Source: Candidatus Angelobacter sp. Gp1-AA117
GTDB taxonomy: Bacteria > Acidobacteriota > Terriglobia > Terriglobales > Acidobacteriaceae
Assembly: GCA_003223515.1 (NCBI GenBank)
Contig: QHVI01000033.1
Location: 1 to 49,900 of the forward strand
DNA: 49,900 nt
Reading direction: 5' to 3'
Of the stretch, positions 9,436 to 38,910 are shown in pieces; positions within the stretch are counted from its first letter, which is position 1; every line of letters begins with the position of its first letter. The translations under genes and the position numbers were made by a program. The notes under the pieces were generated by a model that saw only the letters and a program-made list of their open reading frames with translations, made no database searches and was not told where the DNA came from.

Positions 9436-9508
9436 GGGCTTAATGTTAGCAGGAGTCGCGGCACATGGAGCCCGAAGCCGGTACTCCGTGAATCAGACGA
9501 GCACAGAA

Positions 9509-9575
9509 ATGGGTAAATGGGTAATTTAAGAAGCATCTCGGATTCCTTTGCGTCCTTCGTGCCTTTGCGGTGAGG
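9509..9575. repeat. solo GGTAAAT word array plus CTTTGCG tail repeat
   Basis: Between the AI-2E-type gene and mqnC sit a short GGGTAAATGGGTAATTTA array (9510-9527) and CCTTTGCGTCCTTCGTGCC followed by TTTGCGG (9546-9571), which is an inverse-orientation copy of the CGCAGAGGACGC tail repeat found elsewhere in the window. No gene is present. Confidence 0.5.
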
Positions 9576-10703: not shown

Positions 10704-10745
10704 AGAATTGGTAATTTGGTAATTTAGTAAATGGGTAATTTGGTG
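10704..10745 (+). repeat. GGTAATTTGG word array
   Basis: Four to five tandem near-copies of GGTAATTTGG / AGTAAATGGG run from 10704 to 10745 in the gap between the VTT gene and mqnC. The array is single and not paired with an inverted partner, although GTTACCC at 10744-10750 could fold back on the GGGTAAT just before it. Confidence 0.6.
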
Positions 10746-12484: not shown

Positions 12485-12722
12485 TACCACAGCGTGGCGA
12501 GCCACAACCAAAGGCTTTTACCGCAGAGGGCGCAGAGGACGCAGAGGAAGCAAAAGTAAGTTTATGTGTATCTGATTTGGCACTGTTTCAGTTCCTTAAG
12601 ACTTTTTCGGTCGCCAAAGCTGGGTTGGAAGGGGGGTAAAAGCAGCATGAAATTCTTCGCAGGAAAACAAAAATTTTGGATATAGCAATGCAAAAAATGC
12701 GAAGGACGCAGAGGTAACGAGG
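12485..12722 (+). repeat. dispersed CGTGGCGAGCC / GCAGAGGACGC repeat, degenerate copy
   Basis: The gap between mqnA and dprA holds TACCACAGCGTGGCGAGCC at 12485, followed by CCGCAGAGGGCGCAGAGG, a decayed version of the 120-bp core seen near marR (AAAGTAAGTTTATGTGT at about 12553) and a second CGAAGGACGCAGAGG tail near 12700. No coding gene is supported in 12449-12786. Short frames here translate the repeat. Confidence 0.65.
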
Positions 12723-12786: not shown

Positions 12787-13947
12787 ATGGCTACAACGAT
12801 TCCGGGAACTTCCAACATTATTTACTGGCTTGCACTGTCTCTTACTCCCGGACTGGGGCCGACTCGCGGGCGTAAGCTGGTGGAGCACTTCAGCAACGCC
12901 CAGGACATCTTCCACGCTTCATTGACCGAATTAGAAGCACTGGGATTGCAGGCCCAGTCGGCACAGGCCATTGTGACGGGAAAATCGCTGGAGCTTGCCA
13001 ACGAAGAATTTGCCAAAGCCGCTTCGGCAAAGATCACATTGCTCAGCCGCGACGACCAGCGCTGGCCTGCCCGCCTGAACGAGATTTACGACCCGCCCAT
13101 TATTCTCTACATTCGTGGCAATGCCGGGATCATTGCGCAGCCCGGAATTGCCATCGTCGGCACGCGGCATCCTACGCCGTATGGCATAGGCATGGCAGAA
13201 CGCCTGGCCTGCGACCTGGCTGCGCGTGGCCTGGTAATTTTCAGCGGCATGGCGCGAGGCATAGACACGGCAGGCCATCGCGGAGCATTGAAAGCACCGG
13301 GCAAGACCGTTGCCGTGTTTGGCACCGGAGTGGACGAGATCTATCCCAAAGAGAACCGCAGAGTGGCGGAGAGTATTCTCTCCTCCGGCGGGGCGCTGAT
13401 CAGCGAATTCTCATTGCAGACATTTCCTGCGCCGCAGAATTTTCCCATCCGTAATCGCATTATCAGCGGGCTCTCGCTGGGCGTGCTGGTGGTGGAGGCC
13501 GCCGAGCACAGCGGCAGCCGCATCACGGCGCGTAATGCGCTGGAGCAAAGCCGCGAGTTATTCGCGGTACCCAGCAATGTGACCTCCCGCAACTCCTGGG
13601 TGCCGAATACTTTGATCAAGCAGGGAGCCAAGCTAACTGCAACATGGGAAGACATTTGGGAGGAACTGCCCGCCACTATCAAGCAGCAACTTGAATCCCA
13701 GACCGGAGGTGCAGCATCAGACAGTAAACCGCAGACCGGCAGCCTATTCGCAGAAGAAAAGCTCTCGCAGGCTGAGAAAAAGGTCCTCGCCGTCCTCAAG
13801 GAACACGAGTCAACCCACATTGACGAGATCATCGAAAAGCTGGAGGGAAAGGTGTCGTCGGCGGAGATTTTTACTGCTCTCTTTGAATTAGAGCTGAGTG
13901 GGAAGATAAAGCAGATGCCGGGGAAGAATTTTGTTAAAAGTTTTTAG
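12787..13947 (+). CDS. dprA: DNA-processing protein DprA (Smf)
   Basis: DprA loads RecA on incoming single-stranded DNA during natural transformation. Residues about 10-75 form a helix-hairpin-helix-like N-terminal domain (LALSLTPGLGPTRGRKLVEH). The Rossmann-like DNA_processg_A domain follows, with AIVGTRHPTPYG (about 120), FSGMARGIDTAGHRGAL, AVFGTGVDEIYPKENR and FPIRNRIISGLSLGVLVVEA. The C-terminal 60 residues (AEKKVLAVLKEHESTHIDEI onwards) are the winged-helix DprA_WH domain. At 386 residues it is full length. The stop TAG (13945-13947) is also the first three bases of the inverted-repeat array that bounds the four-helix-bundle element. This is the only competence-associated gene in the window. 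Confidence 0.95.
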   Translation: MATTIPGTSNIIYWLALSLTPGLGPTRGRKLVEHFSNAQDIFHASLTELEALGLQAQSAQAIVTGKSLELANEEFAKAASAKITLLSRDDQRWPARLNEIYDPPIILYIRGNAGIIAQPGIAIVGTRHPTPYGIGMAERLACDLAARGLVIFSGMARGIDTAGHRGALKAPGKTVAVFGTGVDEIYPKENRRVAESILSSGGALISEFSLQTFPAPQNFPIRNRIISGLSLGVLVVEAAEHSGSRITARNALEQSRELFAVPSNVTSRNSWVPNTLIKQGAKLTATWEDIWEELPATIKQQLESQTGGAASDSKPQTGSLFAEEKLSQAEKKVLAVLKEHESTHIDEIIEKLEGKVSSAEIFTALFELELSGKIKQMPGKNFVKSF

Positions 13948-13970
13948 TACTTAGTATTTGGTACTTAGTA
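13945..13970 (+). repeat. left arm of the four-helix-bundle unit
   Basis: Tandem words TAGTACTTAG-TATTTG-GTACTTAGTA start at the dprA stop codon, so the array and the stop share their first three bases. It is complementary to 14396-14425. Confidence 0.75.
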
Positions 13971-14000
13971 AAACCCGGAAACCCGGAGAAGGTGAGATTC

Positions 14001-14390
14001 ATGCGAAATTACAGAGACTTGCAGGTGTGCGCGAAAGCACATTCGCTGACGCTGGATCTTTATAAAATTTCCCGAGCTTTTCCACGCGAAGAGATGTACG
14101 GTCTCACTGCTCAGCTTCGACGCGCGGCAGCTTCCATCGGGGCTAATCTTGCTGAAGCCTGTGGTCGGCGCACCAGCAGCGAGCTTGCCCGGTTTGTTCG
14201 GATCGCAATGGGTTCTGCAAGCGAGCTTGATTATCATCTGCTCCTGTGCCGCGACTTGGAATTGATGAAAGAAGAGGATTTCAACCGCACAAGCAAGAAT
14301 TTAGTGGAAGTGCGAAAGATGCTCACCGCTTTTTTGAGCAGCATCGAAGAACAAATCGAGGTAAAGGCCAAAGCGGCTGCAAAGGGGTAA
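14001..14390 (+). CDS. four-helix-bundle protein (23S rRNA intervening-sequence S23 family)
   Basis: The 129-residue protein MRNYRDLQVCAKAHSLTLDLYK... carries the family hallmarks: the opening RDLQVCAKAH (usually F-x-x-L-x-V-W/C-x-x-A), YGLTAQLRRAAASIGANLAEACGR in the middle, and SASELDYHLLLCRDLELM before the last helix. These predict an antiparallel four-helix bundle that forms oligomers; the biochemical role is unknown. The start at ATG 14001 is preceded by GAAGGTGAG, and a GTG three codons earlier (13992) is less likely. It is flanked on both sides by inverted word arrays, sits between two housekeeping genes, and has no nearby rRNA gene. Confidence 0.9.
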   Translation: MRNYRDLQVCAKAHSLTLDLYKISRAFPREEMYGLTAQLRRAAASIGANLAEACGRRTSSELARFVRIAMGSASELDYHLLLCRDLELMKEEDFNRTSKNLVEVRKMLTAFLSSIEEQIEVKAKAAAKG

Positions 14391-14395
14391 AGAAG

Positions 14396-14425
14396 CTAAG
14401 TACTAAATACTAAGTACTAAATACT
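14396..14425 (+). repeat. right arm of the four-helix-bundle unit
   Basis: CTAAGTACTAAATACTAAG and the following TACTAAATACT begin six bases after the four-helix-bundle gene stop and are the reverse complement of the left arm at 13945-13970. Confidence 0.75.
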
Positions 14426-14488: not shown

Positions 14489-17032
14489 GTGCCAAAGTCC
14501 CTAGTCATCGTCGAATCGCCGGCCAAGGCGAAAACCATCAACAAGTACCTGGGAAAGGACTACGAAGTTGAGGCTTCGCTGGGCCACATCAAAGACTTGC
14601 CTAAAAGCAAGCTGGGTGTGGACATCGAGGGCGACTTCTCCACCGAGTACGACATCATCCCGGGAAAAGAAAAAGTTGTGGCCAAGCTGAAGAAGCTGGC
14701 CAAGACCGCCATTGCCATTTATCTGGCGCCTGACCCGGACCGCGAAGGTGAAGCCATTGCCGCCCATCTTGCCGAAGAACTGCACGATGGAAAAAAGAAA
14801 AAAGACAGCACGCCCATTCACCGTGTCACCTTCAACGAAATCACCAAGAAGGCGGTGCAGGAGGCCTTCCAGCATCCCCGCAAAATTGACCGCCACCTGG
14901 TAGACGCGCAGCAGACCCGCCGCGTGCTCGACCGCATTGTGGGGTACCAGGTTTCGCCGCTGCTGTGGGACAAAGTCCGCCGGGGCCTCTCTGCCGGGCG
15001 CGTGCAGACCGTGGCACTGCGCCTGATCGTGGAGCGCGAACGAGAAATAAAGGCATTCGAGAAAAAAGAATACTGGACCCTTGACGCGCACCTCTCGGCC
15101 AACAAGCCGCCGGCCTTTGATGCCCGCTTTGTGGGGCGTGGCGATGAAAAGACCGAGATTCCCAACGAGGAAGAGGCCACCAAGATCCGCACGGCGCTGG
15201 AAAAGGCGCAGTGGTCAGTCCGCAACGTAGAAAAGAAGGAGCGCCGCCGCAGCCCCGCGCCTCCATTTACCACCAGCAAACTTCAGCAGGATGCCTCGCG
15301 CAAGCTGCGCTTCAGCGTGAAGCGCGCCATGATGATTGCCCAGCGGCTGTATGAAGGCATTGACATCGGCGAAGAAGGTTCTGTTGGCCTGATTACCTAC
15401 ATGCGTACCGATTCAGTGCGCGTATCGAACGATGCACTCACTGAAGTACGCGAGATGATCACTGGCACATACGGCAAAGAGTTCCTGCCGGAAACGCCAA
15501 ATACCTACAAGTCGAAAAAAGAGGCGCAGGAGGCCCACGAAGCCATTCGTCCCACTGCCGTGGCCAAGCATCCTGATGAAATCAAGAAATATCTTCAAGA
15601 AGATGAATACAAGGTCTACAAACTGATCTGGCAGCGCTTCGTGGCTTCGCAGATGAATCCCGCGGTTTTCGATCAGACCAGCATTGATATAGAAGCCAAA
15701 GCGCCAGCCGAGTCCTTCACCTTCCGCGTGACCGGTTCGGTGCTGAAGTTTGAAGGCTTTCTCAAGGTCTACGAAGAATCCAAGGAAGGCAAGGACGAAG
15801 AGGACGAGGCGCTCAAGCACAAACTGCCTCCGATGGAAATCGGACAGAAGCTCACGCTGAAACAGTTGAATCCGGAACAGCATTTCACCGAGCCTCCACC
15901 GCGTTACAACGAAGCTTCTCTGGTGAAAGAGCTGGAAGAGCAGGGCATTGGACGTCCTTCGACTTACGCCACGATTCTTTCGACGATCCAGGAGCGCCAG
16001 TACGTGCAGAAGCTTGGCGGAAAATTTCTGCCGACCGAAATCGGCCTGGTAGTGACCGATCTGCTGGTAGAAAACTTTCCTGATATCTTCGATCCGCAAT
16101 ACACTGCCCGGCTTGAAGAAGAATTAGACGAGATCGGGGAAGGCAAAGAGAAGTGGACTGACGCGCTCGCAGGTTTTTACAAGAAGTTTGAAAAGGACCT
16201 CCGCTACGCTGAAAAGCACATGGAGAACATCAAGCGGATGGAGAAGCCCACAGAAGAGAAGTGCGAGCGCTGTGGCTCTCCGCTGGTGATCAAATGGGGC
16301 AAGCACGGATCTTTCTTTGCCTGCAGCTCTTATAAAAAGGATGATCCTGAGAGCTGCACCTTCACCAAGGAAAATCCCATCGCACTGCCGGAACTGGATG
16401 CGGCAGAGATGCCGGAAACTACCCAGGAGGAATATTGCGAGAACTGCGGGCGCGTGATGGTGCTCAAGCGCGGGCGATTTGGCCAGTTCATGGCCTGCAC
16501 CGGCTATCCGGACTGCAAGACCACGCGCCGTCTCGATGCCGCGAAAAAGGTACCGGATGTCCCTCTGGAGGAGACCTGCCCGAAATGCAACCGCAACATG
16601 GTGCTGCGCCACGGCCGTTATGGGGAATTCATCTCCTGCAGCGGATACCCGGAGTGCAAGTACATCAAGCAGAACTTCATTGGAGTAAATTGCCCGCAGT
16701 GCGCTGACGGCGAACTCGTCGAGAAAAAAGCGCGGCGCCGCGGAAACATTTTCTACGGATGCTCGAATTATCCGAAGTGCGAATTCACATCCGCGTATAA
16801 ACCGGTGGCTGAAAAATGCCCGGAATGCGGCAGTCCGTACCTGCTGGAAAAGCATTTGAAATCCGGGTCGTTGCTGGTCTGCCCGAATAACAATCGCAAG
16901 GCTGCGGACGAGGAAGAGCAGCCCAAATTGAAGAAGCGCGGCAAGAAGGGCAAGGGGGAAGAACCTGCTGTTGCCGCCGCCGTAAAATGTGATTATTCAC
17001 GCCCGATTCCCAAGCCGGAAGCCGTGGCGTAA
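14489..17032 (+). CDS. topA: DNA topoisomerase I
   Basis: This type IA topoisomerase relaxes negative supercoils. The Toprim domain is at the N-terminus (SLVIVESPAKAKTINKYLG, and LAPDPDREGEAIAAHLAEEL with the DxD-like and EG residues). The catalytic tyrosine is Tyr304 in GLITYMRTDSVRVS. The family block HEAIRPT follows. The C-terminal third holds five Cys4-type zinc-ribbon motifs starting near residues 590, 650, 695, 735 and 775; the last lacks its final Cys pair (CPECG...CPNN). The 847-residue length is usual for multi-zinc-finger TopA. The start is GTG at 14489 (VPKSLVIVES); a Shine-Dalgarno sequence is weak. It is followed 13 bp later by a small conserved gene, probably co-transcribed. Confidence 0.96.
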   Translation: MPKSLVIVESPAKAKTINKYLGKDYEVEASLGHIKDLPKSKLGVDIEGDFSTEYDIIPGKEKVVAKLKKLAKTAIAIYLAPDPDREGEAIAAHLAEELHDGKKKKDSTPIHRVTFNEITKKAVQEAFQHPRKIDRHLVDAQQTRRVLDRIVGYQVSPLLWDKVRRGLSAGRVQTVALRLIVEREREIKAFEKKEYWTLDAHLSANKPPAFDARFVGRGDEKTEIPNEEEATKIRTALEKAQWSVRNVEKKERRRSPAPPFTTSKLQQDASRKLRFSVKRAMMIAQRLYEGIDIGEEGSVGLITYMRTDSVRVSNDALTEVREMITGTYGKEFLPETPNTYKSKKEAQEAHEAIRPTAVAKHPDEIKKYLQEDEYKVYKLIWQRFVASQMNPAVFDQTSIDIEAKAPAESFTFRVTGSVLKFEGFLKVYEESKEGKDEEDEALKHKLPPMEIGQKLTLKQLNPEQHFTEPPPRYNEASLVKELEEQGIGRPSTYATILSTIQERQYVQKLGGKFLPTEIGLVVTDLLVENFPDIFDPQYTARLEEELDEIGEGKEKWTDALAGFYKKFEKDLRYAEKHMENIKRMEKPTEEKCERCGSPLVIKWGKHGSFFACSSYKKDDPESCTFTKENPIALPELDAAEMPETTQEEYCENCGRVMVLKRGRFGQFMACTGYPDCKTTRRLDAAKKVPDVPLEETCPKCNRNMVLRHGRYGEFISCSGYPECKYIKQNFIGVNCPQCADGELVEKKARRRGNIFYGCSNYPKCEFTSAYKPVAEKCPECGSPYLLEKHLKSGSLLVCPNNNRKAADEEEQPKLKKRGKKGKGEEPAVAAAVKCDYSRPIPKPEAVA

Positions 17033-19545: not shown

Positions 19546-19581
19546 CTATCAGGAATATAACAGAGCAGAGCGGGATATGTA

Positions 19582-19771
19582 ATCGGGTGATCTGGTGACC
19601 GGGAGATCGGGTGATCGGTACGCGAAGGATACTCCATCGTGAACCGCCGAAAGCATTTTGCCTACACAAAGTCACAACCCGCGCAGAATCACGCGGGCTG
19701 CAGGTGAAATCAATTTTGGAGCACTCCGGCTTTTCAGATCTCCCGATCACCGGATCCCTCGATCCCCGATT
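19582..19771. repeat. inverted pair of GGTGATCGGG word arrays with 116-bp core
   Basis: The left arm (19582-19618) reads as tandem ATCGGGTG / ATCTGGTGACC / GGGAGATC words. The right arm (19735-19771) carries the reverse complement words (GATCTCCCGATCACCGGATC). The core 19619-19734 has no gene. The right arm ends 5 bp from the response-regulator stop codon, and the left arm lies upstream of mlaE. The layout equals that of the four-helix-bundle unit but without the gene, as expected for a solo or MITE-like derivative. Confidence 0.6.
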
Positions 19772-27599: not shown

Positions 27600-27805
27600 C
27601 ACCACAGCGTGGCGAGCCACAACCAAACGGCTTTAACCGCAGAGGACGCAGAGAACGCAAAGGACGCAAAGGACGCAAAGGCAACAAAAGTAGTTGATGT
27701 GTATTGAATTTGGCGGTGTGTTGCTCCCTATGGAACGCACCCATCCTTGGCTGCGCGGGAGAATTCGTCGCAAGCAGAGAAGAATTCGAATGTTAGTAAT
27801 GCAGA
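27600..27805 (+). repeat. long dispersed repeat, copy left of marR
   Basis: The unit starts with ACCACAGCGTGGCGAGCC at 27601, continues with ACAACCAAACGGCTTTAACC and CGCAGAGGACGCAGAG tails, then a ~120-bp core (27685-27804) that recurs 976 bp to the right at 28661-28780 with about six differences by eye. A further tail (CAGAGGACGCGGAG) and an inverse copy (CTCTGCGCTCTTTGCG) fill 27800-27875. Frames here translate as Ala/Glu/Arg-rich repeat text and are not genes. Confidence 0.8.
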
Positions 27806-27945
27806 GGACGCGGAGAACGCAGAGATTTTTTTTGCAATCCTCTGCGCTCTTTGCGTTCTCTGCGGTTATTCACATCTGTCCTGCATAATCGAGCCTCCGC
27901 TTTTGAAGAATGTTTCACGGGGGTGCGTGCTCGAAATTACTTGCA

Positions 27946-28450: not shown

Positions 28451-28781
28451 AACCTTTTACCACAGCGTGGCGAGCCACAACCAAACGGCTTTAACCGCAG
28501 AGAACGCAGAGGAAGGCAAGTAAGCCGCGAATGACGCGAACTGCGCGAATCTCGCGAATCAGAAATGGGACTAGCATTTAGCTGCCCAAGCAGAATTCTT
28601 CGCGGCTTGAGACGAATTTGATTGTTAGCAATGCAGAGAACGCAAAGGGCGCAAAGGTAACAAAAGTAGTTGATGTGTATTGAATTTGGCGGTGTGTTGC
28701 TCCCTATGGACCGCACCCGCCCTTGGCTGCGCGGGAGAATTCGTCGCAAGCAGAGAAGAATTCAAACGTTAGTAATACAGG
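28427..28781 (+). repeat. long dispersed repeat, copies right of marR
   Basis: Two CCACAGCGTGGCGAGCC starts lie in tandem: one at 28427 inside the marR 3' end and one at 28459. The second is followed by CGCAGAGAACGCAGAGG, a non-matching stretch (AAGCCGCGAATGACGCGAAC and a degenerate core near 28590), and then the ~120-bp core 28661-28780 matching 27685-27804. The 28451-28829 gap holds no gene apart from this repeat text. Confidence 0.8.
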
Positions 28782-37207: not shown

Positions 37208-37212
37208 ACATA

Positions 37213-38910
<1,698 letters not shown>

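Follow-up and report, generated by a model that had tools for sequence, protein, structure and literature searches.

The closest described relatives of the element considered here are the intervening sequences (IVSs) of 23S rRNA genes, known from Coxiella and Leptospira; that of Coxiella has a length of 428 nt and a 28-bp terminal stem which is cut by RNase III (PMC4990558). A comparable unit lies outside rRNA in the acidobacterium Candidatus Angelobacter sp. Gp1-AA117 (assembly GCA_003223515.1, contig QHVI01000033.1, positions 1 to 49,900 of the forward strand; this stretch of 49,900 nucleotides is hereafter called the window). At positions 13939-14425, near a stop codon between the protein genes dprA and topA, a gene of the S23 family (PF05635) is enclosed by two arms, which are arrays of one short tandem word in opposite orientation. 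The unit resembles the 23S rRNA IVSs in its PF05635 protein, its paired terminal inverted repeats and its size of about 0.43 kb, and it differs from them in its location, in the 5-bp repeat found at two insertion sites and perhaps in that the arms of S23 units are short-period word arrays common to dispersed gene-less arrays. It is likely to be one copy of a mobile unit in which an S23/PF05635 gene is flanked by two word arrays of opposite orientation, the words of which are probably read by the Avd-like protein encoded between them.

REPIN-RAYT systems likewise combine a gene with neighbouring copies of a repeat that is scattered through the genome; they also have gene-less inverted doublets, and coevolution of protein and repeat has been proposed for them (PMC3116915). 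In contrast to those systems, the S23 unit has no HUH/Y1 transposase and encodes a four-helix bundle of 120-130 aa, and its repeats are tandem words of 7-9 nt rather than single palindromes. Avd of diversity-generating retroelements (DGRs) has the same fold as the S23 protein (4dwl, 8ub7), which gives weak matches to Avd models, but the S23 unit is too small for a reverse transcriptase and its protein scores below the curated Avd cut-offs. Miniature inverted-repeat transposable elements (MITEs) and small insertion sequences share with the unit terminal inverted repeats and may also share with it a short target duplication and non-autonomous derivatives, whereas the S23 unit is without a recognised transposase. 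Tandem 7-nt words like those of S23 arms occur in the short tandemly repeated repetitive (STRR) heptamers, among them STRR1 with the word CCCCART, in the P6b region of the tRNA-Leu intron and in the TAACTGA repeats of Beggiatoaceae. STRR arrays have been used for fingerprinting of cyanobacterial strains (PMC5088731), the P6b repeats form a paired stem (PMC4476775), and a study of the TAACTGA repeats in giant sulfur bacteria states that no means of their transmission is evident (PMC4679880). The accessible parts of these accounts draw no connection to S23, whereas 19 of 26 cyanobacterial S23 genes are armed with such arrays, the likeness being one of word type. In the open-access literature, with bioRxiv and subscription journals outside the search, no report linking word repeats to S23 genes was found in the accessible texts save for the rRNA IVS stem; TIGR02436 is unnamed in those texts, PF05635 is named in one paper, on DGRs, and GxxExxY in two, and no function is assigned there to the PF05635 family.

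The unit between dprA and topA

The locus contains the following features:

12787..13947, plus strand: dprA, co-directional with the unit and upstream of it
13939..13968, plus strand: left arm, array of the 7-nt word TAYTTRG with words at 13948, 13955 and 13962 (inverted-repeat search)
14001..14390, plus strand: intact gene for a 129-aa four-helix bundle, PF05635 (23S_rRNA_IVP) / TIGR02436 (open reading frame, profiles and fold)
14396..14425, minus strand: right arm, inverted TAYTTRG array with words at 14396, 14403, 14410 and 14417
14489..17032, plus strand: topA, co-directional with the unit and downstream of it

Both arms are made up of the word TAYTTRG with a period of 7; each is 30 nt long, they are complementary at 28 of 30 positions (93%), and the spacing between them is 427 nt. 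A previous sequence-only reading of the window had described inverted arms of about 26 bp with the left one starting at the dprA stop codon. The inversion stands, with arms slightly longer than claimed, and the left arm does overlap the stop codon (TAG, 13945-13947) with its outer part, which lies over the 3′ end of dprA, but it starts at 13939 and not at the stop codon itself. The right arm starts 5 nt past the stop of the S23 gene. The same reading was correct in placing one S23/TIGR02436-type four-helix gene between the arms and in seeing no rRNA there: the enclosed open reading frame (ORF; ATG at 14001, stop at 14388-14390) encodes a protein matching PF05635 with 120 bits (cut-off 33.8) and TIGR02436 with 113.6 bits (cut-off 24), and no rRNA is found in the window by Rfam at gathering thresholds. 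In the predicted RNA fold of the unit, the arms pair into a single closing helix (-177 kcal/mol, z -3.8).

Inverted arms around S23 genes across bacteria

The terminal inverted repeats of the window unit are also general among S23 genes. The arm score was taken as the best inverted local match between the 250 bp upstream and the 250 bp downstream of an S23 gene, with a threshold of 14. PF05635 was found in at least 75 of 149 Acidobacteriota genomes. Among the PF05635 matches listed for this phylum, 74 genes were scored, leaving out L037 and L038, which are below the cut-off, and L043, L045, L051, L066 and L078, which lie near contig ends; 59 of them have arms. The controls reached the threshold in 6 of 654 cases for other ORFs within these loci, in 40 of 2897 for cross-paired flanks and in 8 of 74 for flanks paired in direct orientation. 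In a set drawn from many phyla (the best 80 of 584 loci, 77 of which were scored, L165, L203 and L207 being too short), the threshold was reached by 50 of 77 S23 genes; control ORFs reached it in 7 of 667 cases, cross pairs in 61 of 3000 and the direct orientation in 7 of 77. Arms are present at 70 of 96 S23 genes in the window's own GTDB family, and at 19 of 26 among the cyanobacterial matches listed (L374-L378 left out; L349 is the L225 unit of the many-phyla set), where cross pairs reach the threshold in 67 of 2000 cases and the direct orientation in 5 of 26.

When the Acidobacteriota, many-phyla and GTDB-family sets, which partly overlap and contain at least two units twice (L032 = L108, L106 = L114), were pooled, 163 of 228 entries were armed, compared to 5 of 103 controls, which were genes of 80-250 aa lying between two intergenic stretches, one of those five being an S23 gene itself (Fisher p 4e-33). 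The inverted-arm architecture of S23 units is general in bacteria, and the arms whose absence around other family members the sequence-only reading had named as evidence against it are found around most members in all four, partly overlapping, sets.

Covariation of words and proteins

Word statistics were obtained for 161 units with an arm score of at least 14 and a protein of at least 80 aa, identical proteins being merged. The best period is 7 or 14 in 125 units, 8 in 29, 9 in six and 6 in one; the median arm has 29 nt, or about four words, and on the inward-reading strand G exceeds C in 133 units and C exceeds G in 22. Words vary from unit to unit, and within each unit both arms share one word, as their pairing demands.

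S23 protein similarity predicts the word and its orientation. Protein identity is correlated with word similarity (Mantel r 0.247, with none of 999 permutations as high), the reverse-complement control giving r 0.007. Between genomes, the share of pairs with matching words goes from 1-2% where the proteins are 40-60% identical through 23% at 60-70% identity to 63% at 70-80% (19 pairs), and the match to the reverse complement rounds to 0% in each identity bin. Out of 271 pairs with at least 60% protein identity, 176 have no detected flank homology and share the word in 36 cases, and the remaining 95, in which flank homology was detected, share it in 38. This covariation supports, indirectly, a protein that handles the arms, and the S23 protein may recognise its own word array.

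Filled and empty sites on cyanobacterial plasmids

The sequence-only reading had also suggested that the unit is mobile or RNA-processed. A plasmid search with a Mesorhizobium S23 protein gave 40 records, mostly from cyanobacteria and 16 of them from Nostoc. On cyanobacterial plasmids there are seven filled/empty sites, at each of which a unit carried by one plasmid is missing from its relative. The first site is filled in plasmid C of Trichormus variabilis ATCC 29413 (insert of 428 bp), a strain whose S23 protein is WP_011316862.1, and in Scytonema NIES-4073 (414 bp) and empty in Nostoc carneum NIES-2107 and Aulosira laxa NIES-50, with flanks 97-99% identical. The gap of the Trichormus insertion slides by exactly 5 bp (GTAAT) and lies on the stop codon of the upstream gene; in a simulation, 0.6% of randomly placed insertions gave a slide of 5 bp or more. 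Nostoc C052 pE retains the left part of a unit at the same place. The locus offers a clean empty site for a study of mobility.

At another site, the unit of Nostoc ATCC 53789 pNsp_a, compared with C057 H, has TTCTA at both ends and again lies at a stop codon; Nostoc C052 pD carries the same insertion. A 3-bp repeat (5 bp with one mismatch) is found in ATCC 53789 pNsp_c compared with C052 pA. The junctions are not clean at the other four sites, namely those of Calothrix, Aulosira p2, Nostoc C052 pD/N. edaphicum, which adjoins a gene for a TraM-domain protein, and Anabaena 90, which is inside a type I-D cas operon. At the TraM site, ATCC 53789 pNsp_c has by eye an inverted array of a similar word with no annotated S23 gene, and C057 H an inverted array of another word. 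Related units, 78-83% identical over about 420 bp, recur elsewhere on different plasmids. The mobility of the units is supported by these sites, where a unit is there or missing as a whole, two of the sites showing a 5-bp repeat.

The pair of Anabaena sp. 90 and Dolichospermum, which is 99% identical in the matched parts, was set aside as a clean empty site because its other side holds a different repeat. The S23 unit of this Anabaena strain lies on plasmid pANA02 (L385, 2983-3351) between cas6 and cas4 of the type I-D CRISPR operon, and in Dolichospermum UHCC 0315A the cas6-cas4 position is taken by that different repeat. A CRISPR survey lists 23S rRNA IVP among its novel associations (PMC10910872).

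Copies within the host genome and at dprA-topA in related genomes

The window unit (C169) and a second unit of the host genome (C183) lie at unrelated places, and their proteins are sisters in the tree (100/83). Their DNA is 79% identical along 426 bp that begin with the gene and run through the right arm; the left arms resemble each other in their words alone, and no further alignment is found within 900 bp. Over 110 codons, the non-synonymous divergence (dN) is 0.07 and the synonymous one (dS) 2.7, which is saturated, and the arms nevertheless keep one word. Judged from these codons, the S23 protein is under strong purifying selection.

The dprA-topA locus was compared in 30 genomes of the GTDB family, its own included (the best 30 of 57 DprA matches). 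An S23 gene is present at 13 loci, whole in 11 and frameshifted in two; four loci have S23 remnants, three of them weak (E 0.001-0.004), and 13 have no S23 trace at E 0.01. The upstream control stretches searched for S23 remnants gave no match. The inverted-arm score is 11.5-25.5 at the 13 gene-bearing loci (below 14 at three), 6-26 at the four remnant loci (L124 being practically armless) and at most 11 at the 13 loci with no gene trace. Arms left standing in relatives that lack the gene, which the sequence-only reading had named as speaking against it, are not seen at these 13 loci, with L117 as a caveat: it may be a further remnant site, because AGC-type words lie by eye on either side of it, although its score is only 9.5.

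Words of the resident units differ among the genomes, and between genomes the word changes jointly in both arms of the locus (L108-L137). In the protein tree, which has few columns relative to its rows, the 11 rows from the dprA site need six label changes, at least two of which are forced by the starred branches. The locus was not counted as proof of repeated insertion, vertical inheritance with loss fitting too.

Position relative to neighbouring genes

For 99 armed units both neighbours were readable, genes being called from ORFs in a simple manner. In 87 of the 99, the upstream gene is co-directional, compared to 220 of 344 control genes (p 2e-6), the controls covering direction and not distance. 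In 56 of these 87, no more than 15 bp separate its stop codon from the outer edge of the arm, with a median of 5 bp. None of the 12 divergent start codons is as close. On the right-hand side, the same 15-bp limit takes in 34 of 71 start codons and 16 of 28 convergent stop codons. S23 units are mostly sense-oriented and near the stop codon of the upstream gene.

Fold and relatives of the S23 protein

The AlphaFold model of the window protein is a four-helix bundle with a pLDDT of 96. Its Foldseek matches are 2gsc and 2rld, with five chains each, followed by Avd of DGRs, alone and within the reverse-transcriptase complex (4dwl, 8ub7; TMq 0.74, E 0.006); Avd is a pentamer. Polar residues invariant among 20 sequences are Y21, Q38, R41, S45, N49, E52, S72 and E75 in the numbering of the window protein. 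The window protein fails the Avd-specific model NF033474 (27 bits, cut-off 80), and the protein of locus L384 fails the bAvd model (27 bits, cut-off 40). Pfam detects neither a nuclease or polymerase domain nor a known transposase in these units, only PF05635 in the window protein and PF05635 with a weak bAvd match in that of L384. A defence role is without support from PADLOC, none of its models matching at E 0.01 for the two S23 proteins tried; as to a phage origin, a single DNA query had no match in phages.

Gene-less arrays

The sequence-only reading had pointed to several gene-less inverted pairs in the window, and two are as follows:

19579..19765, no strand assigned: inverted pair of 8-nt word arrays with no S23 gene, arms 19579-19617 and 19737-19765
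27638..27868, no strand assigned: inverted pair of 9-nt CGCAGAGGA-type arrays with no S23 gene, arms 27638-27680 and 27838-27868

Their spacing of 119 and 157 bp is too small for an S23 gene. Other short-period arrays of 8- and 9-nt words in the window are at 9507-9523, 10708-10743, 12522-12551, 28526-28559, 28630-28667 and 37211-37242. In the 6.48-Mb host genome, TAGTACTTAGTA has 34 matches against one for the reversed control, and a degenerate two-word pattern has 103 against two, some places being counted on both strands. The window and 20 contig starts, 336,555 bases of the host genome altogether, contain 85 arrays of period 7-9, of which 23 (two of them the arms of the window unit itself) have an inverted match within 700 bp, compared to four with a direct match and two with an inverted match in a random region. 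Three gene-less arrays of the host (L004, L011, L029) are chimeric, with TAYTTAG sliding to AGCTGCT and then GGCTCTT, as if arrays had inserted into arrays.

Some words follow the genomes that hold their putative owner genes. GGTAAWTK has 96 matches in the host genome (G000), 15 in G194 and at most three in each of 28 other genomes, and G000 and G194 are the two genomes holding the S23 subclade with this word. At least 10 matches of GTCGTTN are found in 9 of 10 genomes with the owner clade compared to 4 of 20 without it, where the cut of 10 was chosen after the counts and the tree lacks some S23 genes of those genomes.

GxxExxY genes with the same architecture

Arrays of 9-nt CACAGAGGA-type words were predicted to accompany GxxExxY genes, which belong to PF13366 of the PD-(D/E)XK nuclease family. 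The CGCAGAGGA-type 9-nt arrays, abundant in the genome of the window, are the word class framing these genes, and all three GxxExxY (TIGR04256) genes of the host genome (C91, C146 and C196 of G000) are armed. Arms are present at 23 of 30 GxxExxY genes in Acidobacteriota, the host's three included, against 2 of 57 controls (L305-L336, leaving out L316 and L330, whose loci end at contig ends). Cross-paired flanks reach the threshold in 154 of 1987 cases, a high rate owing to the conservation of words between these units. The words are mostly of 9 nt, by eye, around GxxExxY genes and mostly of 7-8 nt around S23 genes. Among the PADLOC models, the GxxExxY protein has a weak Cas4b match (E 0.0019).

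Another acidobacterial genome, G097, has 40 GxxExxY matches, many of which are near-identical truncations of 53 aa (L337-L348 inspected). They were not taken as a sign of autonomous mobility: 12 of them form part of a longer repeated block, whose near-identity extends some 540 bp upstream and some 180 bp downstream and which is apparently an ordinary insertion sequence that picked up a GxxExxY remnant.

Proposed mechanism and rival explanations

In the mechanism proposed for the mobile unit, the Avd-like S23 bundle, whose relatives were crystallised as five chains, would bind the word array in the RNA or single-stranded DNA of the unit, the repeat units of the array facing the repeated protomers with one word per protomer. 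The arms would pair and close the unit as in the 23S rRNA IVSs, and insertion would depend on a trans-acting enzyme, which might be a reverse transcriptase, as Avd works within a reverse-transcriptase complex. The identity of this catalyst is the weakest step of the scheme, and the choice made here is rather doubtful. After sense insertion between operon genes, the S23 gene would probably be co-transcribed and the host operon kept working, and the gene-less arrays would be non-autonomous derivatives of the unit.

Several observations weigh against this reading. The covariation of protein and word could equally come from joint descent of gene and arms, so that recognition of the word by the protein is an inference. 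The dprA-site proteins cluster, so the pattern at this locus may largely reflect vertical inheritance with loss and not repeated insertion. The 5-bp repeat is found at only two of the seven plasmid sites, with 3 bp at one and unclear junctions at four, and at the TTCTA site the right flank is one base off from the empty site. As many as 65 of the 228 pooled entries are below the arm threshold. The link between owner and word is imperfect, with G172 having 54 GTCGTTN matches and no owner in the tree. Right-hand neighbours are close too, so tight gene packing accounts for part of the stop-codon proximity. A catalytic domain and a reverse transcriptase are absent inside the unit, which at 0.43 kb is too small for the latter.

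The alternative that the unit is immobile and that selection maintains the arms of a resident S23 gene for binding or regulation (as an operator, an RNA stabiliser or an RNase III target) would agree with the pairing of the arms in RNA, with the strong purifying selection on the protein, with the covariation of arms and protein and with the role of the 23S IVS stem as a substrate of RNase III (PMC4990558). It is nevertheless considered improbable, as it leaves aside the presence and absence of whole blocks, twice with a 5-bp repeat, the closely related units that occupy unrelated places of a single genome or lie on different plasmids (there with 78-83% identity along some 420 bp), and the dispersal of gene-less arrays and inverted pairs. 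Slightly less probable still is that some unrelated enzyme disperses the word arrays as a general repeat, with the S23 gene, like GxxExxY, as passive cargo caught by chance between two arrays: two unrelated protein families do share the architecture and the host genome has more gene-less arrays than gene-bearing units, but passive cargo should not track the word, whereas protein identity predicts the word, in orientation, even with unrelated flanks, and the word classes differ by protein (mostly 7-8 nt for S23 and mostly 9 nt for GxxExxY by eye). Short-period arrays are plentiful in the host genome and, if common in intergenic DNA, might pair by accident or through composition; this reading is ruled out for practical purposes by the cross-paired flanks (40 of 2897 and 61 of 3000 at the threshold), by the direct orientation, by the control ORFs (6 of 654 and 7 of 667) and by the control genes with intergenic flanks (5 of 103).

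More broadly, and tentatively, with chances put at somewhat under even, the S23 and GxxExxY units could be two branches of an unrecognised, bacteria-wide mobile class with ends of 7-9-nt words read by the encoded protein. Members would insert in sense at operon stop codons with a 5-bp stagger, probably by way of an RNA that a trans-acting reverse transcriptase copies, the words being read by the Avd-like S23 pentamer; the 23S IVSs would be one landing site, and the STRRs, the TAACTGA repeats and the CACAGAGGA-type arrays would be gene-less derivatives. The PF05635 family is common, and the analysis suggests for it a role as reader of its own word array. The S23 unit may explain dispersed short repeats of several bacterial groups, with an owner gene per word class, and if the reading is true, the 23S rRNA IVSs are a single instance of a broader element. 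Short tandem words read by a small protein, with no known transposase involved, would amount to a novel principle among the mobile DNAs of bacteria.

Other features of the window

The sole Rfam match in the window is the Acido-Lenti-1 RNA (RF01687) at 1118-1163, with 55 bits.

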